Below are positions 35,630 through 57,200 of a DNA stretch of 64,000 bases, piece by piece. Position 1 is the stretch's first letter. The number at the start of each line of letters is the position of its first letter. The translations under genes were made by a program, and so were the position numbers. Source of the DNA: Vulcanisaeta distributa JCM 11217 (GTDB lineage: Archaea; Thermoproteota; Thermoprotei; Thermoproteales; Thermocladiaceae); contig NZ_BBBJ01000001.1 in assembly GCF_001316005.1 (NCBI RefSeq), positions 1-64,000 on the forward strand, in the 5' to 3' direction. The notes beneath the pieces were generated by a model. It was not told the origin of the DNA, did no database searches, and worked only from the letters and a program-made list of their open reading frames with translations.

Positions 35630-37047
<1,418 letters not shown>

Positions 37048-37051
<4 letters not shown>

Positions 37052-37677
37052 TGGCGATGCCAAGCGATGAATTGGCAATAGGTCTTTACAGGATAGGCGC
37101 AATCAAGTTCGGGCGATTCAAATTAACCAGCGGTATTGAGAGCCCATTCTATATTGACTTAAGGCTTGCAATAACCCACCCAGGCATTTATAAGCAGTTG
37201 GTTAGGTCTATGGCTAATTTACTATCGGGCTTCAACATTGATGCTGTGGCGGGTATAGAAACGGCGGGTATACCCTGGGCCTCGATGGTTGCTTATGAGC
37301 TTGGTAAGGGCGTGATATACGTTAGGAAGGAGGCTAAGGAGCATGGTATGGCGAGGCTTGTTGAGGGCGATTTGAGGCAGGGTATGAGGGTTGCCGTAAT
37401 CGATGACGTAGTGACCACGGGAGGCTCGATAATTAGGGCTATTAGGGCTGTTAGGAGTCACGGTGGTGATGTGGTTGTGGCGGCAGCCTTCATTGATAGG
37501 GAGCAGGGCGGGCTTGATGCAATCAGGAGAGAGGGTGTTAACGCTGTTGCCCTACTTCGGATTACAGAGGTGATTGACATCCTCGTTAAGAATGGACTAA
37601 TCAGTGATGAGTTACGTAATTCAATAATCAATTACCTGGTGAGCACGCGTGTTAATCCGGGTACTCAAACTACTTAA
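37048..37677 (+). CDS. pyrE: orotate phosphoribosyltransferase
   Basis: Intact, 209 residues (starts [14 protein letters not shown]; the second or later Met may be used). Substrate loop [23 protein letters not shown]-binding motif [14 protein letters not shown]. No G/C run longer than four in the gene, and it is unbroken, unlike its neighbours. Overlaps pyrI by 4 and pyrD by about 29 bases. Confidence 0.95.
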
Positions 37678-38618
37678 TTACCTGCCTCCTGAGCTCACTT
37701 ACGAGACCTCACATGCACTCATTAGGAGTGGTATTGTTAATTACCGTGGTTATGAACTTGAAATGCCCGTTGAGGTTAATGGTAAGTCCATTAAGAATCC
37801 GCTAGGGCTTGGTGCGGGTATTGACAAGGATGGATTTCTAGCTCCATGGATTGCGCGGGTAGGTATTGGCTTCATAACCATTGGCTCAATCACGCTTAAG
37901 CCACGCCCTGGTAATCCCAAGCCGCGCATCGTTAAGTACCCTAGTTTTAAGGCAATGGTTAATGCCATGGGTTTACCATCGAGGGGCTTCATAGACTTCA
38001 TAAGTCGATTACCGAGTATTCTCAATAGGCTGCGCGGACTCGGTACTTACGTAATTATTAGCCTGGCGGGATTCTCAATTGGTGAGTTTATGTACATGCT
38101 TAACAATTTGAGGGGGGTATGGTGTTGACGCCGTGGAATTAAATATTAGTAGCCCTACTTACCGTGGCTCATGGATATCGGATAGGGAGTACCTAGGTGA
38201 ATTGCTTAGGGGTGTTGAGGCATTTCCAGGTACGTTGTTCATAAAACTGCCCCCCCTTGGGGTTAATATTGAGTTTTACAGGTGGATTGTGAACATGGCT
38301 GGTAAGCGTGGGTTTGGATTAACGATAGCCAATACCCTGCCAACTAAGGAGCCTGGGATTTCCGTTGGCTATGGCGGATTAAGTGGCTATCCAATCTACC
38401 CAATTGTTAAGTCATTGATTGTTAAGGTTAGGAGGTGGGGGGGCTTTAGGAACCCGATCATTGGGCTTGGCGGCGTCTTTCATGGGTGGCAAGTGATCGA
38501 TTTAATGAGGAGTGGTGCGAACATTGTTGGTGTGGTTACGGCATTTGCGTACGAGGGTCCCTTCGTGTTTAATAGATTGTTTAAAGAGGTATTGATGGGT
38601 CTGAGTGAAAGACTTTAA
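37649..38618 (+). CDS. pyrD: dihydroorotate dehydrogenase, one frameshift
   Basis: FMN enzyme oxidising dihydroorotate. NPLGLGAGIDKDGFLAPW, FITIGSITLKPRPGNPKPR, NAMGLPS, then across the break ELNISSPTYRGS, IKLPPLG, ANTLP and the FMN phosphate loop IIGLGGVFHGWQ. G6 at 38112-38117 breaks it; five gives LRGYGVDAVELNISSP. About 322 residues, class 2-like in its N-terminus. Last pyr gene. Confidence 0.92.
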
Positions 38619-38642
38619 TAATTATTTAGTCAGTACGTTTCG

Positions 38643-39284
38643 ATGGGCCTTAATTACTATTGGGGGGGTGGTGGTTATGGAGTGCCGTTTAGGCCGTATA
38701 GACATGAGGTTAGGGATATCGTGGTTGCCTTAGTTGCAATGACGATAGCATTCGCACTACTCTTTAATACGTTACTTAGTATTGGCGGTTTAGTGGCGAC
38801 ATTTATCGCAGTGTTGACTGGATTCCTCGGCCATGAGCTAATGCATAGGGAGGTGGCGAGGAGGTTGGGTTACATAGCCTATTTCAGGGCTTGGTGGATA
38901 GGCTTATTGCTGGCTCTCGTTACGGCTTTAACGAGGTTCTTCATAATAGCCACGCCTGGCGCCACGGTAATAGGCCCAAAGGTTTGGGGGGGTTACCCAT
39001 CAAGGAGTGATGAGTTGAAGATAGCCCTTGCCGGTCCAGCCACAAACATAGCCTTCGCAGTGGTATTCCTGCCACTTTGGTTATTACTACCCAGCCCCCC
39101 CTTCTCCTTCTATGCCAACATAATATACGCGACTAATGCATGGCTCGGCTTCTTTAACATGCTACCGCTCGCGCTACCGGGTATTATGCTTGATGGTTTT
39201 AGGGTGTTTAGGAGGGACATTAGGGTTTGGGTCATAGCCTTTATAATATCTGTTGCGTTATTGATACCCAGCTTTATCCTGTAA
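38643..39284 (+). CDS. M50-type (site-2 protease-like) membrane metalloprotease
   Basis: Zinc motif GHELMHREVA inside a membrane helix and the third ligand region NMLPLALPGIMLDGFRVF. About five membrane segments; ALAGPATNIAFAVVFLPLWL is typical of the M50B minimal family. 213 residues, intact. G7 runs give YWGGGGYG at the start and KVWGGYP. Likely intramembrane processing of regulators or surface proteins. Confidence 0.85.
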   Translation: MGLNYYWGGGGYGVPFRPYRHEVRDIVVALVAMTIAFALLFNTLLSIGGLVATFIAVLTGFLGHELMHREVARRLGYIAYFRAWWIGLLLALVTALTRFFIIATPGATVIGPKVWGGYPSRSDELKIALAGPATNIAFAVVFLPLWLLLPSPPFSFYANIIYATNAWLGFFNMLPLALPGIMLDGFRVFRRDIRVWVIAFIISVALLIPSFIL

Positions 39285-39326
39285 TGCCATGGCAAGGATT
39301 ATACCTAGCTCACTGTTGCGGTAACT

Positions 39327-40577
39327 GTGAAGTTTAATTATGAAGTAATTAATGAGGAATCCAACATAGCCATCGTAACCCTCTGGAGCAGTGTAAACCA
39401 GGTTAAGGGGCTTCTCGGTGATTCAATAAGCCTTGTTGGTGTTATAGGCAATCTATACACGCCAGTCGGCATCAATTACATGATAGCCACCCTAGCCAGG
39501 ATGAATTGGATCGATACGTTGATAGTCTATGGCCTTGATTATAATGGCGTTGGTGATTTATTAATTCGTTTCTTTAGGGATGGTGCATTAGACGTACTGC
39601 TTGTGAGTAAGGATGTTGCGGATAGTGTTAGGTCTACGGTGAGGGTGATAGACCTTAGGGAGGCATTTAAGGTGCGTAACGCCGACTTATTAATAAGGAT
39701 CGTCCATGAAAACTATAGGTCTGGGCGTAGGCCTGTTAGACCATTGATGAACGTGGAGGTTCGTGAAAATGAGCATGGTGGTGGTTGGGTGTTACCGTTG
39801 GTCGGCGGTTTCATTTATGAGAGGGACACCTATAGGTCCTGGGTTAAGCTCGTTGATTTAGTATTAAATTATGGCTTTGATAAGGGTGATTATAGGGAGT
39901 TGATAACGCCGCTCGTGGTCATAGATTCGATGGGTAAGCCGCACCCATTCAGGAGACTCAACGAGGCTGGGCTTAGGGGGGGTTTTGAGCCTCCTGCCGA
40001 GGTGGTTGATGCCATGGTCAGGGAGTTGAGGATTAATCCGTATTCGATCAACGCTGTTTATTACGGAAGTGATTACTTGGTTCAGGGTGTTATAAGTGGC
40101 GACTATTATAATCAAGTGGTTTATTTGAGGAGTGTGGACGTGCTCAATGACTGGTGCAGGCAGTTATATAGGTGGTGGTCTCTTGCGAGGAGAATCGTCG
40201 AGACCCTGAATAGCGAGTTCAATGCCTGGTATAGCGTGGGTTCCATAGCCGTAATGCCGTTCTCAGCCAGGATATACGCCAAAGACCTAAGTAGGGCTGA
40301 GGAGTTCGTGAGGAGAAACGCCAATGTGTTCAGCGAGTTCGTCGAGGATCCAAGGGGTAACTTCCTGGTTATGAGGGAGGGCGAGTCCGTGGTTGTTGAA
40401 CATAGGTTGCCAATCACTAACTCACTACATAGGAGATTCTCGTTTAAATCCCTTGAGGAGGCATATAACACGCTCAAGAACAGCAATCACTTCACTAATT
40501 ACTCACACGCAATGTACCTCGGCAAGGAGTTGGCGAGGGCGTTCCTTCTCAGGAATTATGAGCAGGATAAGTTATGA
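39327..40577 (+). CDS. thymidylate-synthase-like protein with N-terminal DUF4346-like domain
   Basis: 416 residues, intact, GTG start. The first 130 residues (TPVGINYMIATLARMNWIDTLIVYGLDYNGVGDLLIRFF) resemble the MtrA/DUF4346 fold. The C-terminal part (LYRWWSLARRIVETLN, GSIAVMPFSARIYAKDLSRAEEFV) resembles archaeal thymidylate-synthase-like proteins. A catalytic Cys may be the one in VLNDWCRQLY, but this is not secure. Overlaps the next gene by 20 bases. Family call is tentative. Confidence 0.45.
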   Translation: MKFNYEVINEESNIAIVTLWSSVNQVKGLLGDSISLVGVIGNLYTPVGINYMIATLARMNWIDTLIVYGLDYNGVGDLLIRFFRDGALDVLLVSKDVADSVRSTVRVIDLREAFKVRNADLLIRIVHENYRSGRRPVRPLMNVEVRENEHGGGWVLPLVGGFIYERDTYRSWVKLVDLVLNYGFDKGDYRELITPLVVIDSMGKPHPFRRLNEAGLRGGFEPPAEVVDAMVRELRINPYSINAVYYGSDYLVQGVISGDYYNQVVYLRSVDVLNDWCRQLYRWWSLARRIVETLNSEFNAWYSVGSIAVMPFSARIYAKDLSRAEEFVRRNANVFSEFVEDPRGNFLVMREGESVVVEHRLPITNSLHRRFSFKSLEEAYNTLKNSNHFTNYSHAMYLGKELARAFLLRNYEQDKL

Positions 40578-40872
40578 GAGAAAAGTTAATCCGTACCTAT
40601 GCAACGATGAGAATATGGTTAGGAAGAAGCCATACCCGCATAACAATGACATACTAAATGCAATGCTTAGGGTGTTTTCCAGGGAACCCTTCGTAAAGCC
40701 GATAGACTTTCCGGACAAGGTCCGTGAGGAACTTGAGAAGGAGGGCTTCTACGTAGGCCTTGTTTCTACAAAACGCATCTGGAGGATTTATGAGGAGGCG
40801 GTCAGGAGGGGGGGCTTAATCTATGACTATCTAGGCGTGGTAATTGGCTATGGTGAGTACTGGGAGGAATAG
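40558..40872 (+). CDS. small conserved-looking hypothetical protein
   Basis: 104 residues from ATG 40558, overlapping the end of the thymidylate-synthase-like gene. Basic N-terminus (SYERKVNPYLCNDENMVRKKPYPHNN), then FPDKVREELEKEGFYVGLVSTKRIWRIYEEAVRR and a hydrophobic end. Translational coupling suggests a joint role with its neighbour. No family recognised. Confidence 0.55.
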   Translation: MSRISYERKVNPYLCNDENMVRKKPYPHNNDILNAMLRVFSREPFVKPIDFPDKVREELEKEGFYVGLVSTKRIWRIYEEAVRRGGLIYDYLGVVIGYGEYWEE

Positions 40873-40955
40873 GTATTACGGTGATGCCGTGTTAATAGCC
40901 ATGGTTAGAAATTTCTAAGTGAGGGCTAGGCGATGTGTTGTTTCATGGGCGTGAT

Positions 40956-41940
40956 TTAAACGTAATCATCTCTATTGACCTTATTCATGGGCGTCTCTCC
41001 CCCCCTAAGGTACCTAATTACGTTCTCCACGGCCCTAATCATCGCGTACTCAGCAATCTCCCTCTGAGCCCCCCCACCAGCTATGTGTGGTGTACCCAGG
41101 AAATTAGGTAATGCCGTCAATGGCGTCCTCGGTGGTATTTCCTCATGCCCATCATGTACCCACCAAACATCAGTGCCAAACCTAATGTCCTGCCTCTCCT
41201 TAAGAACCCTGTATAGGTCCTCCTCCTTAACCACGTCACCGCGGCCGACATTCACAACAATGGCGCCACGCTTTAATGCCCTAAGCTCCCTCTCGCCTAT
41301 TAAGCCTTCGTATGCTTATTCAGTGGTAACGCTATTGCACTATGTCAGCTCTTGGCAGTACATCGAGTAATTTACTCGTTGGGTAGACCTCATCAAAGTA
41401 TTCGGCTGGTCTACCGCTTCTATTAATTCCGATATTGTAGGTCCTGAACCCCCCCTCCTTACCGATCCTCGCAATCTCCCTACCAATACCGCCAGTGCCG
41501 AGGACGAGCAGTGTTGACTCAATGATTTTGCGCGGGCTCGTTAATTCATTACTTAGGTACTCCCTGGCATTTAGTACGGGCTTGTGCAATCCCTTGGCAA
41601 GCGTTAGTATCATGGCCCATGCATGCTCAGCAACGGGCACCGAGTAAGCCCCCCCTGCGTTGCTATAGATCTCTACATTGCTTGGTATTGCGGTGAATGG
41701 TAGGTGGTCAACACCTGCTGAGAACGTCTGTATCACCCTTAGCCTAGGCATGGATTTAATGTTACTAGTCAGGTCAAACTCCCTACCGCACCAGCACATT
41801 AGTATCTCGGCGCTGGATAACGCGCTTGATTGTTCGTCCTTACCCAACTTCGGTAGTTCGTAGAGGTTGACATTATAACTCCTTAGCATTTCCCTAGCCT
41901 TTTCAGGTAATTCCACCGTACTGACTATCGTTGTTGTCAT
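40956..41940 (-). CDS. D-isomer-specific 2-hydroxyacid dehydrogenase, two frameshifts
   Basis: NAD-dependent dehydrogenase. VAEHAWAMILTLAKG, Rossmann LLVLGTGGIGREIAR, then across the break ALPLNKHTKGLIGERELRALKRGAIVVNVGRG, the catalytic region EIPPRTPLTALPNFLGTPHIAGG. Missing single G's near 41337 and 41306 restore PRADIVAIALPLNKHTKG. C7 runs add Gly in SNAGGAYS and GKEGGFRT. About 328 residues. Substrate (glyoxylate, phosphoglycerate or another) not predictable. Confidence 0.85.
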
Positions 41941-42020
41941 TTAAATTGAGGCAGATTGCTAACTATTTAATTTTTCACGGGCAAAAATACTTTTAACTGG
42001 GCTTTCTTCCGGTAACGCGA

Positions 42021-42185
42021 ATGGCGAAGATAAAGCCACCTAAGGAGCGTAAGTATGGGAGGGCCGTAATTAGGTGTCAAAGATGTGGTACTCATGAGGC
42101 TGTCATTAGGAAGTACGGGCTTTACTTATGCAGGAGGTGCTTCAGGGAGGTGGCACCGCAACTAGGGTTTAAGAAGTATTACTGA
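42021..42185 (+). CDS. rps14: 30S ribosomal protein S14 (uS14), zinc-binding type
   Basis: 54 residues: [19 protein letters not shown] at the start, zinc cysteines CQRCG and CRRCF, and the family end [14 protein letters not shown]. No G/C run longer than three; frame intact. Stands alone, downstream of the divergent dehydrogenase. A TATA-like actatttaattt lies near 41961. Confidence 0.95.
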
Positions 42186-42243
42186 GTATTCATACTCATT
42201 ACGATTGCTTAGGGATTATAAGCACCAATGCGACTAATTAACT

Positions 42244-43173
42244 ATGGCTAGGATACCCGCAACACTTAACCTGGACAAAATTATCGAAGTAGCCAAGGCA
42301 CTGGCATCGCTGGACCTGCGCAGGTCCAACGCCTTCGATCCAAGGTTTTACCCGCCTAAGGATGCGGATATTGAGGCCACGTACAATTACTTCCTGGCGA
42401 TGGTGGCGATCGACCATAGGACGAATATTGGAGATTGGCAATTCATTAGGCGAGTTGGCGATGAGGTTTTCACGGGCTCCGACCTACTTTGGAGGTTGGG
42501 TATGGAGATGTTTAGTAGGGATAGTTCCTTCTTCAGCCCAGCCAGCCTAAGGAGGCTTGATCCCACGGTGGTTAAGGACTGGCTCGTTGGTGATTATGGA
42601 CCCGTTTGGGATTATGGTGTTAGGGCTTACCTACTTAGGGATGTGGGTTCTTACGTGCTTAGGAATTATGGTACAACGATTAGGCTTTTCCATGTCTCAA
42701 ACGTTGAGGAGTTGATTGATAGGTTATCCGGTATGGCAGCCTATGAGGACCCCCCCGTAAAGAAGAAGGCTTACCTATTGATTAAGTTCTTGGTGCTACG
42801 TGGGTTGCTGAAGGCCAAGCCGCAGGAAATTAAGCTACCAATTGATAATCACCTCACGAGGATTGCCTATAGGCTCGGCATCGTAAGGCTTGAGGATTGG
42901 GTTCTCGAGTTAATGAGACGTGATGTGCACTTTAGTAGGGAGCTTGACGTTGAACTTAGGTTGACAGTTCGTGATGCTTGGGACGCGGTGATTAGGATTG
43001 GTAAGCTAGACCCAATAGCGTTGGATGACTTCCTATGGAGGTTTGGAAGGACTGTATGCATTAGGGACAAGCCGCAGTGCGATAAGTGCCCATTGAAGGA
43101 TGTTTGTAATGCGTATGCAAGGGGGGGTTCGTTTATTAACGAGCACAATCACTACCTAACATATTATTACTAA
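42244..43173 (+). CDS. Fe-S loop protein of HhH-GPD glycosylase type
   Basis: 309 residues, intact. The C-terminus has CIRDKPQCDKCPLKDVC, the C-X6-C-X2-C-X5-C [4Fe-4S] loop of EndoIII/MutY glycosylases. The preceding DNHLTRIAYRLGIVRL and FLWRFGRTVC fit the helix-hairpin-helix fold. The N-terminal half (DADIEATYNYFLAMVAIDHRT) is specific to archaeal proteins of this kind. It may be a DNA glycosylase or a structural relative; the catalytic Lys/Asp are not assigned. Confidence 0.6.
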   Translation: MARIPATLNLDKIIEVAKALASLDLRRSNAFDPRFYPPKDADIEATYNYFLAMVAIDHRTNIGDWQFIRRVGDEVFTGSDLLWRLGMEMFSRDSSFFSPASLRRLDPTVVKDWLVGDYGPVWDYGVRAYLLRDVGSYVLRNYGTTIRLFHVSNVEELIDRLSGMAAYEDPPVKKKAYLLIKFLVLRGLLKAKPQEIKLPIDNHLTRIAYRLGIVRLEDWVLELMRRDVHFSRELDVELRLTVRDAWDAVIRIGKLDPIALDDFLWRFGRTVCIRDKPQCDKCPLKDVCNAYARGGSFINEHNHYLTYYY

Positions 43174-43215
43174 TTAATGACAATACTTAAATGAGAATAG
43201 GCCACTGCTAAGTTA

Positions 43216-44307
43216 ATGATTATTCGCGCAGTTACGTTGTTTTATCCCGTGGAGAATGGCAGGGTTAATGCCGATGAGCTTAGGCAGGAACTGGTTAAGC
43301 TACGTAATGTGGTAAGCAATGTTAGTGGCAGGAGGGGGGATTGAGATAAGGACCTGGAGGGTTACACTACCCTTCACCGAGCCGTCCTGGGACTTCGAGG
43401 AATTATCAACAATAATGCATAAGGTAAGTGCCGACCTTGGGTACATTCATGCATCGCTAAATATAGCCATGGAGTCAAGGTTCGAGTTAAATAAGTTGGT
43501 TAATGCATTCATTGAGTCGGGGAGTTACCTGAGTATTTGGGTTGGTAATTTCAATGAATTGAATGAGTACAACACTGAGTTATTTACGAACGTGCTTAAG
43601 AAACTTGTGGAGCTAAATCAATGGGCTCTATCCAGAAGGATCGCCGCATTAATCGGCGATGCGATACTCACGCCGTACTACCCAGACTCAATAAACCTCG
43701 GCAATAACCATGGTATAGCCCTATCAATACTATACCCGAGCGAATTAAGTAATGAGCGTAATCTACGCAATGACCTCACCAGGGTATTTAGGACTGCCGA
43801 GGACATTGGTAAGGAAATTGCAAGTGAATTGGGCATTGATTACCTGGGTATCGACGTCTCACTATCACCCTGGGGGGGTGAGGAGTCCGTTGTCAATGCC
43901 ATTGAGAGGATTTATGGGATTAGGTTCGGCGGGCCTGGCACGTTAAGTGCCATTTATAAATTGAACAAGGCCATTTGGGAAGCATCCAATCAATTTAAGG
44001 TAACAGGATTTAACGAGGTGATGCTGCCGCTTGCTGAGGATGAGCAGTTGAAGGCGAGGGCTAGGGAGGGCTTAATCACATTCTCCAAGCTTGTTAAGTA
44101 CACGATGACCTGCGTAGCCGGTGTTGACATGGTACCAATACCAAGCAGTCAATTATCGCTCATTAAGGCTTAATCAATGATTTACATGCGATAGTCAGTA
44201 TTAAGCGCAGGTCGATTGGGCTTAGGTTAATACCATACCCAGGCAGTGAGGCTGAGGTTGACCTTGGAGACTTCGGTAAGACACCGGTACTTGACATGGT
44301 GAGGTGA
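43216..44307 (+). CDS. DUF711 family protein, two frameshifts
   Basis: Start MIIRAVTLFYPVENGRVNADEL, then across G6 43334-43339 (five gives SGRRGIEIRTWRVTLPFTEPSW) the main body: YHLGYI-like SADLGYIHASLNIA, EIASELGIDYLGIDVSLSPWG. After a one-G gap near 44169 the end RSIGLRLIPYPGSEAEVDLGD follows. About 363 residues; this family is of unknown function, related by fold to pyruvate-formate-lyase-like barrels. Ends just before the phosphorylase gene. Confidence 0.82.
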
Positions 44308-44312
44308 TTTTC

Positions 44313-45042
44313 ATGCCAATACACCTAAGGGTTAATCCTGGGGGGGATATTGCCGAGAGGGTGGTAATAGTCGGTGACCCAGAGAGGGCGAGACAATTAA
44401 GTGAGTTACTCGTTGGTGCGAGGCTCGTTAATGAGAATAGGGGGGTTAATAACGTACACAGGCAAGTACAATGGTGTCGACATCACGGTGGCGACCCACG
44501 GAATCGGAGCCCCCATCGGCCGCCATAGTGATTGAGGAGTTGATAAGCATGGGCGCCAGATTCATTGTTCGCCTTGGAACCGCAGGGGGGGCGCTTAGGA
44601 GGGAGATAGGCATTGGCGATGTGGTTGTACCCACAGGCTCTGCATACAACTACGGAGGAATATACACGCAGTACCTGGGCAGTTTCATAGCTACCCAGCA
44701 ATACCTGATTACCACCTAATGAGTGAGTTAGTGAGAAGTCTCGAATCGATGAATATAAAGCCCTGGGTTGGTCCGGTGTATAGTAGCGACGCATTCTATG
44801 CGGAGGAGGATCTAGTCAACGTACTTGGTTCGAGGGGCTTCCTGGGCGTTGAAATGGAGACCGCAATACTATTCCTACTGGGCCTTATGAGGGGGGGCGT
44901 AAAGACGGCGGCCGTGCTCATAGTAAGTAACAACCTGACCGAGGGCAGGGCTGGAAGGTTCTTAATAGCGAGTGAGTTAAGGGATGCCGTGCTCAGGGTT
45001 GGTAGGGCTGTGTTAAATGCGTTAATTATGGTTAAGGATTAA
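44313..45042 (+). CDS. purine nucleoside phosphorylase (PNP/UDP family), three frameshifts
   Basis: Hexameric nucleoside phosphorylase. PIHLRVNPGGDIAERVVIVGDPERA at the start, ATHGIG and SAAIVIEELISMGARFIVRLGTAGG in the middle, GVEMETAILFLLG and VSNNLTEG at the end. Breaks: G6 44440-44445 (five gives NENRGLITYTG), C5 44510-44514 (four gives GIGAPSAA), C3 at 44694-44696 (four gives PAIPDYHLMSELVRS). G7 at 44340 makes PGDIAE into PGGDIAE. About 240 residues. Inosine/guanosine or methylthioadenosine substrate. Confidence 0.9.
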
Positions 45043-45874
45043 GCACGGTATCATAGTACTGAGTAAGTCTTGGCTTAAAGTCCAGGAACTCCCTAATAGT
45101 CTTAACTTCAAAGTCAACCCTTCTTTCTGGATCCCTATCAAAGATCAAGACACCCTTGCTCACAACTTCATACGCCAGTAACAACGGCGCTTTATTAAGA
45201 TGTACGAGATCAACTCTCAACCCTAACGAGTCCTCTAGGTCCATTGCCATGCTCACGAGTTCCTTCCAACTTAATTCCCTGCTAGTGAATATGGCGATAT
45301 CCACGTCACTCCCTGGGGGGGACGGCTTACCAATTACCCATGAACCAAATACGTAGGCGAATAGCACAGAGTTAGATCTCTCTAGTACCTGCCTAGCCCT
45401 ATTAATTATGTTAATAAATCCTCTATCGCTGGTAATAAATTGATTATTATCGGGATCTATTGACCTATCCCTGACAAAATTACTAATCTCATTAATTACC
45501 CTATCTAACTCATCGATTTCATTTAAAGCCTCAATCAATCTCTCGGGATCTATCACGGCATAGCCGTGGACAAGCACATTCCTAAAGCTAATCCACAACT
45601 CGAATAACTTACCAGTTTCATCACTAAGGACATTGGCGCTCACCAATATTCTCGCAACATCCCTATACCTCTCGGGTTTACTAAGATTAAGAATTGAGCA
45701 CAGTCTCATACCAACATCAATGAGGGATTCAACGGCTAAGTGTAGGTAACGCTCAACGGCACCCCTAAGCACCAAATCCCTACTTAAATCATCAACAGTC
45801 CTCGCTCTATCCCTAATCGACCTTAGAATATTTACATAACTCCTAGCCATCGCCAATTTATCATTAATTATCAC
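45032..45874 (-). CDS. fused HepT-MntA (HEPN toxin plus nucleotidyltransferase antitoxin)
   Basis: One intact frame joins both halves of a HepT/MntA module. Residues 1-150 are the HEPN domain (SRDLVLRGAVERYLHLAVES) with catalytic SFRNVLVHGYA. From about residue 165 comes the nucleotidyltransferase with YVFGSWVIGKPSPPGSDVDIAIF and LRVDLVHLN. The family spacing between GSxxxG and SDxD is one shorter; the extra Pro coincides with G7 at 45315-45321. It overlaps the convergent phosphorylase gene by 11 bases. Confidence 0.85.
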   Translation of the reverse strand: MIINDKLAMARSYVNILRSIRDRARTVDDLSRDLVLRGAVERYLHLAVESLIDVGMRLCSILNLSKPERYRDVARILVSANVLSDETGKLFELWISFRNVLVHGYAVIDPERLIEALNEIDELDRVINEISNFVRDRSIDPDNNQFITSDRGFINIINRARQVLERSNSVLFAYVFGSWVIGKPSPPGSDVDIAIFTSRELSWKELVSMAMDLEDSLGLRVDLVHLNKAPLLLAYEVVSKGVLIFDRDPERRVDFEVKTIREFLDFKPRLTQYYDTVLNP

Positions 45875-46200
45875 ACTACCACGCCAAAATTGTACACTCC
45901 TTACCCAAACTAAAAACCTTGCACATATTACCTACAAGGACTTAACGAAGACGCATCAGCGCGCAGGTCTTGGGTCCTCACCCATCAGATCCGTCCCCCC
46001 CGCTTAACATCATCAAAGCATGGTCTACTAACTTGTTAATAACCCTTAACATGTAATAGGAAACCGCGGGTTAGGGCTACAAGCCCTTTTCATTGGGCCA
46101 ACCAGCCATTTTCATTACATGCTGTGCCTTATCGCTAGCCGTACACATACTATGGCGGTTCTTAGGGACTTAATTTTATAATGGCTTCTGTAATTAAACC
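45875..46200. other. intergenic region, nothing recognised
   Basis: No gene or RNA recognised. A C7 at 45995-46001 is in non-coding DNA. Divergent promoters are expected at the two ends. Confidence 0.35.
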
Positions 46201-46209
46201 GTGAACATA

Positions 46210-46932
46210 ATGAACAATTCCAGCGTCATTGACCTACTGATTAGCGCTAATCCCGTGGAGTTAGAGAAGGATTTCGACTCCAGGGTAATTACTAACATTG
46301 TTAAGCCGCCGATAGTCGTTAGGCTTGATGGGGGGGCCGGCTTTGGTAAGGCACTTAGGGACTTTAACTGGCCCAGGGATGAGAGGGTTCATAGGGCATT
46401 GATTAAGGCTGCCGTTGAGTTAATGAGGGTCTTCTCCGGTGAGTACGCGCTCGTGATTAGCGATGAGATTAATGTCTTCCTCCTTAGTTATGTGCCGTTT
46501 AATGGGCGTGAGTATAAGCTAATTAGTTCAATGGCTGGCCTCGCATCGGCCATTGTTAGTAATGCCCTTGGTAGAGTCCTCTACTTTGATGCCAGGGTTA
46601 TTCCGCTTAATGATGATTGCCGTGATGTTGCCAGGTACATGCTTTACCGCGTTAGGGTTGGTTTCAATAATTATCACGTTGAGGTAGCCCAAAGGAGTAG
46701 GGTGGTCCCGCCAGAGAGTACTCCGCACATAGGTGACGTAATAAAGGCCTTGGGCGGTCCAAGGCTTACCTGGGAATCCCTTGGTACATGCCTGGTTAGG
46801 ACTAGGGTTGAGCTTGAGGGCATTGACAGGAGGAGTGGTGAAAGGATTAAGTATGTTAGGAAGAGGATTGTTGAGAGGAACCCAATCGATGTCATTAACG
46901 AACTTAGCAGGTGCGGTCCTAATGCTCAATAA
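46210..46932 (+). CDS. thg1: tRNA(His) guanylyltransferase-like protein (Thg1)
   Basis: 3'-5' polymerase family. VVRLDGGAGFGKALRDFNW corresponds to the DGxGF catalytic motif, lengthened by one Gly at the G7 46330-46336. ALVISDEINVFLL holds the conserved Ser-Asp-Glu and GREYKLISSMAGLASA the following motif; LYFDARV and NDDCRDVARYMLYRV follow. 241-244 residues, depending on GTG 46201 or ATG 46210. Archaeal members repair tRNA 5' ends or add G-1. Confidence 0.85.
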   Translation: MNNSSVIDLLISANPVELEKDFDSRVITNIVKPPIVVRLDGGAGFGKALRDFNWPRDERVHRALIKAAVELMRVFSGEYALVISDEINVFLLSYVPFNGREYKLISSMAGLASAIVSNALGRVLYFDARVIPLNDDCRDVARYMLYRVRVGFNNYHVEVAQRSRVVPPESTPHIGDVIKALGGPRLTWESLGTCLVRTRVELEGIDRRSGERIKYVRKRIVERNPIDVINELSRCGPNAQ

Positions 46933-46978
46933 ACTTGTTAATAATATTTAATAACCAGATAATTGCGAAATTAAGCAT

Positions 46979-47621
46979 ATGGTCAATACCCACGAGAAGC
47001 TCAGGGAATTAGTGGGTGACTTATGGAGTAAATATACTAGGCATGAATTCGTTGAGAGGCTCAGATGGTTCATTACCAATGGACGTCTTTAGGTATTACC
47101 TAATTCAGGACACGAAGTACGTGAGAGAAATGCAGAAGGCCGTGATTGAGGCTGCGAGTAAGGCTCCGCTTAATGAGGCCATTGACGTGTTAACAGCGGT
47201 ATTCAGCAATGTGGAGAGGGGTGCGGAAGTTCATGAGAGGTTATTCCGTGACTTATCAATAACGGAGGAGGAAGTTAACAATACAGGGTTCAACCTAGTT
47301 AATTACGCGTACACTAGGCATCTACATTACTACGCATCATTGGGCTGGCCCCAGTTCCTCGCGGCATGGGCACCATGCATGTGGGGGGGCTACCACGAGA
47401 TTGGTAAGTACGTTGTTGGTACTGGCAACGCCATATTCAATGCATGGGCCGAGTTCTACGCATCGAGCGATTACTGGTCTAGGGTTGAGGCCATCCTAAG
47501 GACGCTGGATAAGTACGGGGGGGTAACGCCTGATATGGAGAGGGCATTTAAGGACAGCGTTAATTTCGAGATAATGTTCTGGGAAGCCTCGCTCAGGAAG
47601 GACCCAACAATACTTTACTAA
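46979..47621 (+). CDS. tenA: TenA/thiaminase II-like protein, one frameshift
   Basis: Helical TenA fold. The N-terminus (VNTHEKLRELVGDLWSKYTRHEFVERL) is out of frame with the rest. Near 47068 one extra or two missing bases separate it from DGSLPMDVFRYYLIQDTKYV. FLAAWAPCMWGGYHEIG holds the usual PCxWxY region, with a Gly added at G7. Salvages pyrimidine moieties for thiamine synthesis, or a related amine hydrolysis; some archaeal members have lost the Cys. About 214 residues. Confidence 0.8.
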
Positions 47622-56875: not shown

Positions 56876-57087
56876 TTAACGTAGTGATTAGGGACCTGAA
56901 AGTAGCAATAGTGAACCAAAACCTCAAGCCCTGAACAAAAATCCCAAACATCCAGGAAACAGAAAGCACTATAATTCACTACCGAAGCAATCATAAATTA
57001 ATCCCAAGCCAACGATCATGCAAAGAGACAAAACCCACAAAACAAACCCCCCCAAATCATAACAAGGATCAATACCCTGATGGTGCC
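56876..57087. other. intergenic region 3' of tRNA-Phe
   Basis: A-rich on the plus strand. A C7 stands near 57048-57054. No gene seen. It would contain the 3' trailer and terminator of the tRNA transcript, read leftward. Confidence 0.35.
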
Positions 57088-57161
57088 CCCCCGGCCGGGA
57101 TTTGAACCCGGGACCTACCGGTCTTCAGCCGGTCGCTCTCCCAGAGCTGAGCTACCGGGGG
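57088..57161 (-). tRNA. tRNA-Phe (GAA)
   Basis: Minus-strand cloverleaf: acceptor CCCCCGG/CCGGGGG, D arm GCTC...GAGC, anticodon arm ACCGG-CTGAAGA-CCGGT with anticodon GAA, T arm CCGGG-TTCAAAT-CCCGG. No intron. The 3' end lies in a G7 (plus-strand C7 57086-57092). With four G instead it would read CCGGGGC-A-CCA, i.e. a normal C72, discriminator A73 and encoded CCA. As written, position 73 is G and CCA is displaced by three bases. The 5' side has a six-base run at 57157-57162. Confidence 0.9.
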
Positions 57162-57184
57162 GTCGTTTTTTGTTCTTCTTGTCG

Positions 57185-57200
57185 GGGGGGGATTTAAGTT
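57185..57200 (-). promoter_or_regulatory. TATA box for tRNA-Phe
   Basis: Minus-strand aaaaaacttaaatccc, about 28-35 bases before the tRNA 5' end, a usual spacing for archaeal tRNA promoters. A non-coding G7 (plus strand 57184-57190) overlaps it. Confidence 0.45.

Follow-up and report, generated by a model that had tools for sequence, protein, structure and literature searches.

The gene at positions 57081 to 57164 (minus strand) of the window, by which we mean the whole 64,000-nucleotide stretch of Vulcanisaeta distributa JCM 11217 analyzed here, is almost certainly an ordinary archaeal tRNA-Phe whose seven-base acceptor-arm tract results from a systematic miscalling of homopolymer lengths in the draft. 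The tract is technical and has no biological meaning. Runs of G or C of four or more bases are overcalled, mostly from four to seven, while A/T runs, and G/C runs of one to three bases, are intact. The observation carries no weight as biology and matters for data quality: three public archaeal drafts contain thousands of such tracts each, with inserted residues, some broken reading frames, and malformed tRNAs and rRNAs as the consequences. No biological reading should be given to insertions of one residue at G/C tracts, to odd tRNAs or divergent rRNA, or to low completeness in these drafts.

The tRNA-Phe gene and its counterparts in relatives

We compared the window's genome (G000) with its sister draft (G003) and with other relatives, coded G002 to G072. 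ARAGORN places a tRNA-Phe with the anticodon GAA at 57085-57162 on the minus strand, and RF00005 matches there with 63.3 bits, i.e., the GAA anticodon lies in a cloverleaf that scores as a tRNA, as in an archaeal tRNA-Phe. Comparison with G003, G004, and G005 gives the wider ends stated above, with the encoded CCA at 57081-57083, the discriminator A at 57084, and a probable first base G at 57164. On the plus strand, C7 occupies 57086-57092 and G6 occupies 57157-57162; the minus-strand sequence of the gene is ...ACGA-CCCCCC-GGTAGCTC...CCCGG-CC-GGGGGGG-C-A-CCA. As written, a G follows the 7-bp acceptor stem and CCA lies three bases further on; only when the tract is read as four does the stem lead directly into A73 and CCA (CCGGGGC, A, CCA). 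An earlier note on this DNA had described this displaced CCA and G discriminator, together with the archaeal form obtained at four bases, and the letters of the window confirm its description.

The tRNA-Phe loci of the relatives were located with ARAGORN around matches and then read directly. Seven G at the 3' end were found in none of the 11 relatives read. The end is CCGGGGC-A-CCA in G002, G003, G004, G005, G008, and G017, CCGGGGC-A-TCA in G010 and G014, and CGGCCGC-A-CCA in G025, and the gene has the form GCCCCCG...CGGGGGC-A-CCA in G013 and G016. This comparison, which the earlier note had proposed as a check, shows a four-base tract in the relatives and upholds the reading as four; likewise, the CCGGGGC-A-CCA end bears out the view of a normal archaeal tRNA-Phe with an encoded CCA. 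The G tract at 57086-57092 (minus strand) is thus a 3' acceptor-arm tract written as seven that has four bases in the closest relatives (G002, G003, G004, G005, and G008), a miscall of +3.

On the 5' side, G002, G004, G005, and G008 read GCCCCGG. The sister draft, whose flanks are much like those of the window, reads ACG-CCCCCCC-GG, with four G in its 3' arm. The window's ACGA-CCCCCC-GG is as long as this C7 arm and differs from it in one base. Because of the equal length, the 5' arm of the window (A+C6, 57157-57163, minus strand; C7 in G003 and C4 in G002, G004, G005, G008, and G010) is a +3 miscall as well, with its first C written as A. This accounts for the six-base run that the earlier note had left unexplained. 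The 5' arm is expanded in both G000 and G003 and the 3' arm in G000 only; since G003 combines a 5' arm of seven with a 3' arm of four, the acceptor arms do not change together. Near the gene, a C7 tract of the same class lies downstream (57047-57053, plus strand), and a G8 tract upstream (57184-57191, plus strand) has seven bases in G003 and five at the matching place in G010.

In its anticodon, arms, A73, and encoded CCA, the window's gene agrees with the Vulcanisaeta tRNA-Phe (GAA), and it differs in acceptor arms with miscalled tract lengths. The D-loop reads AGCTCTGGG in the window and G003 versus AGCCTGGG in G002, G004, G005, G008, and G010; the one extra T shared by the first two is probably real. 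G003 has an insert, probably an intron, in the anticodon loop, and G002 and G008 each have one close to the T arm; the window, G004, G005, and G010 have none.

Run lengths across the genome and across assemblies

The window has 1293 G/C runs of three bases; at greater lengths, the counts are 65 (four bases), 23 (five), 19 (six), 127 (seven), and 12 (eight), and no run is longer. A/T runs drop smoothly, from 186 of four to 52 of five and 10 of six. When the count is extended beyond the window to a total of 184 kb of this genome, seven-runs of G or C (363) again outnumber four-runs (183), and HGGGGGGGH matches the whole genome 3857 times, both strands counted. This genome-wide excess bears out the suspicion that the tRNA-Phe tract shares its defect with other G/C tracts. 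The same motif occurs 0 to 5 times in each of ten other genomes of the genus and 4803 times in the eleventh, G003. The latter is V. distributa JCM 11216 (a 6673-base slice is identical to NZ_BBBI01000008.1), and its draft (NZ_BBBI01) shows the same genome-wide seven-run excess and the same miscalls in 16S; it differs in that we take it to be another species and in that its expanded tracts are partly different.

When 81 genomes of the class were screened for G/C seven-runs by HGGGGGGGH matches on both strands, the excess appeared in three, from two genera: G000 (3857), G003 (4803), and G072 (7958), the next highest count being 310. In a second screen of 398 genomes drawn from the phylum, a draw from which G072 is absent, only G000 and G003 stand out, all others having at most 340 matches. 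G072 belongs to the same family as the window's genome and to another genus, whose members G014 (43 matches) and G017 (119) are without the excess. The excess is thus confined to particular assemblies, other members of both genera being free of it, and it follows batch, not clade; for the close relatives G000 and G003, clade and batch are confounded, and G072, from the other genus, breaks this confounding. Reported completeness is 67 for G000, 67 for G003, and 47 for G072; because it is low also in G002 (63) and G007 (54), both without the excess, low completeness is not specific to it. A motif choosing which tracts expand was considered and rejected, as the bases flanking four- and seven-runs, judged by eye, are much alike for kept and expanded tracts in G000, G003, and G072.

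Conserved RNAs, reading frames, and inheritance of tracts

The 23S rRNA of the window's genome is partial (C10, 456-2166, 1100 bits over about half of the model, plus two short pieces), and whole 23S genes in seven relatives score 2693-2787 bits; searches for 16S in the window's genome and for 23S in G003 and G072 gave no match. We aligned the partial 23S with the seven relatives and compared runs in homopolymer-compressed form. Relative to G008, 45 four-runs are written as seven (23), four (12), five (8), eight (1), or three (1), 19 five-runs as seven (8), eight (7), five (3), or six (1), and 5 six-runs as eight (4) or seven (1), with 512 of 513 A/T runs unchanged. The four-runs of the control genomes, likewise read against G008, are unchanged in 66 of 68 cases in G002, 62 of 63 in G004, 68 of 69 in G005, and 58 of 58 in G010. 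The pattern extends to G/C runs that are identical in all seven relatives: 18 four-runs become seven (11), five (4), eight (1), four (1), or three (1), 6 five-runs become seven (3), eight (2), or five (1), and 2 six-runs become seven and eight, whereas 411 of the 412 runs with one to three bases are unchanged. In 16S, 20 four-runs common to at least six of eight relatives are written in G003 as seven (12), five (3), or four (5), and 17 four-runs shared among relatives are written in G072 as seven (9), four (7), or three (1). One of the 23S insertions falls within the CTGGGGCGG stretch, which we take to lie at the peptidyl-transferase centre. Functionally invariant RNA positions are thus affected, and a working ribosome with all of these 23S insertions, that in CTGGGGCGG included, is not believable.

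Tracts in other tRNAs and elsewhere in the window change likewise. For 29 of the genome's 37 tRNA matches, we made a comparison with tRNA loci of relatives (30 from G008 and G010, one from G004). The 25 aligned four-runs are written as seven (9, one of them in tRNA-Phe), eight (1), six (1), five (2), four (5), three (4), or one (3). Some of the best matches, with compressed identity as low as 0.70, are not truly orthologous, which makes the shorter values unreliable, along with some long runs that were aligned to runs of one to three bases. Over 31.5 kb of window sequence, 49 four-runs of G002 are written as seven (26), four (14), three (4), two (2), one (2), or five (1). The overcalled share of four-runs therefore amounts to about half to three quarters (27/49 in the window, 32/45 in 23S), and +3 is the commonest change, not the sole one.

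For the protein genes, G008 ORFs of at least 90 residues from 14 kb were compared with the window at 37,000-47,000 and read if they reached at least 60% identity. The matches stay in frame across seven-tracts, at about one extra residue per tract: 38115-38615, 38682-39281, 42238-43170, 41940-41338, and 41306-40959 have two tracts and two gap residues each, 39315-40574 and 43337-44167 one tract and one gap residue each, and 40615-40869 has a single tract with three gap residues. Each of the three G6 tracts in this region, all on the plus strand, coincides with a frame break: at 38112-38117, in a conserved ORF, where the miscall is other than +3; at 43334-43339; and at 44440-44445, where G002 has five bases. 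Three more breaks in conserved ORFs, near 41303, 41338, and 44167, lie away from G/C six-runs and may reflect further indel errors besides those of G/C tracts.

Selection for an intact frame was rejected as the source of the +3 change, since rRNA and tRNA show it too and frames break at the G6 tracts. The earlier note had reasoned from the tRNA gene, which has no frame, that the expansion step itself adds three bases. Its rejection of frame selection holds, but the step is not strictly +3, as the 23S lengths vary, and the change resembles a leap to an upper limit of seven to eight. Nor is the step an act of the cell; it belongs to sequencing or consensus building instead.

Site by site, G000 and G003 show no sign of inheritance. 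We collected 38 orthologous tracts that have four bases in G002 and set aside 7 in which one of the two drafts had neither a four-run nor a run of six or more. Among the 31 usable sites, 14 are expanded in both drafts, 7 only in G000, 6 only in G003, and 4 in neither (Fisher p = 1.0), i.e., no association is detectable in this small sample. A looser set formed without G002 (65 of 75 sites usable) gave 34, 14, 9, and 8, respectively (odds ratio 2.2, p = 0.24). Strong agreement would be expected of inherited tracts, and in these small samples no inheritance site by site is detectable between these close species. A biological expansion should spare conserved rRNA tracts and share its expanded sites by descent, and neither is seen.

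Probable cause and competing explanations

A real genomic expansion, in which archaeal replication or repair would lengthen G/C runs of at least four to seven, mostly by three, would account for a pattern that is sharp, genome-wide, present in two close species, and independent of reading frame. However, it would have to expand many rRNA runs at once that are invariant in the relatives, the CTGGGGCGG stretch among them, which a working ribosome would hardly tolerate. Moreover, the expanded sites of G000 and G003 are not associated, frames break at G6 tracts, and the excess is seen in another genus yet absent from ten genomes of the same genus and from two congeners of G072. We regard such an expansion as very improbable and reject it on the grounds of the rRNA runs and the lack of site association. 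Still less credible is a true lineage-specific tRNA-Phe with a longer acceptor arm and a matching synthetase change; the one observation in its favor is the greater length of both arms in the window's gene, and it is contradicted by the uncoupled arms of G003 (seven and four) and by the other tRNA loci, where 8 of the 25 aligned four-runs become seven outside tRNA-Phe. At the far end of the scale, we place a genuine, stochastic, genome-wide lengthening of G/C runs of at least four bases to seven in some cultures of the family, with RNA-level correction keeping rRNA, tRNA, and proteins normal.

An error made when a long-read assembly was polished or its consensus was built, in place of a flow miscall, is a more serious contender, although an unlikely one. 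The jump from four to seven with few fives and sixes resembles a model-based decision on length, and the 23S alignment also shows short runs that lack a single base. On the other hand, A/T runs are intact, although homopolymer errors of long reads in general should affect them as well, and the affected JCM 11216 draft (BBBI) has a prefix neighboring BBBK, for which Ion Torrent PGM is stated (PMC9872577).

We therefore favor a flow-sequencing homopolymer overcall as the most likely cause, on a platform, the Ion Torrent PGM, that we infer from a draft with a neighboring prefix: this instrument produced BBBK, the draft of V. souniana JCM 11219 (PMC9872577), and BBBI and the window's draft were presumably made in the same way. 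In flow sequencing, each run gives a single signal, from whose size its length is called, and poor calibration of the G and C flows, beginning at runs of four, would yield a threshold, a base preference, strand symmetry, and a ceiling at eight. Presumably, the base caller of the vendor recalibrates lengths from runs of four onward, and JCM drafts with these prefixes originate from RIKEN. Platform or collection alone would not explain the peak, because G002 (JCM 16159) and G005 (JCM 14467), from the same culture collection, have no seven-run peak. Against a flow cause stands the gap at five and six between four and seven, which is unusual for flow noise that mostly errs by one. According to two papers on Ion Torrent sequencing, the signal varies with nucleotide type, run length, and read position (PMC5001236), and the PGM makes many homopolymer indel errors, which depth is suggested not to remove (PMC3446914). 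Our literature search found no paper on a mostly +3, G/C-only, consensus-fixed artefact; the shift in the window resembles the errors described in those two papers in being tied to homopolymers and differs from them in being mostly +3, restricted to G/C runs of at least four bases, and present in the consensus itself.

A separate observation concerns G002, which has a small excess of A/T seven-runs (9 in 60 kb versus 5 six-runs) and single-base deletions in its 23S, together a different homopolymer error in another draft.
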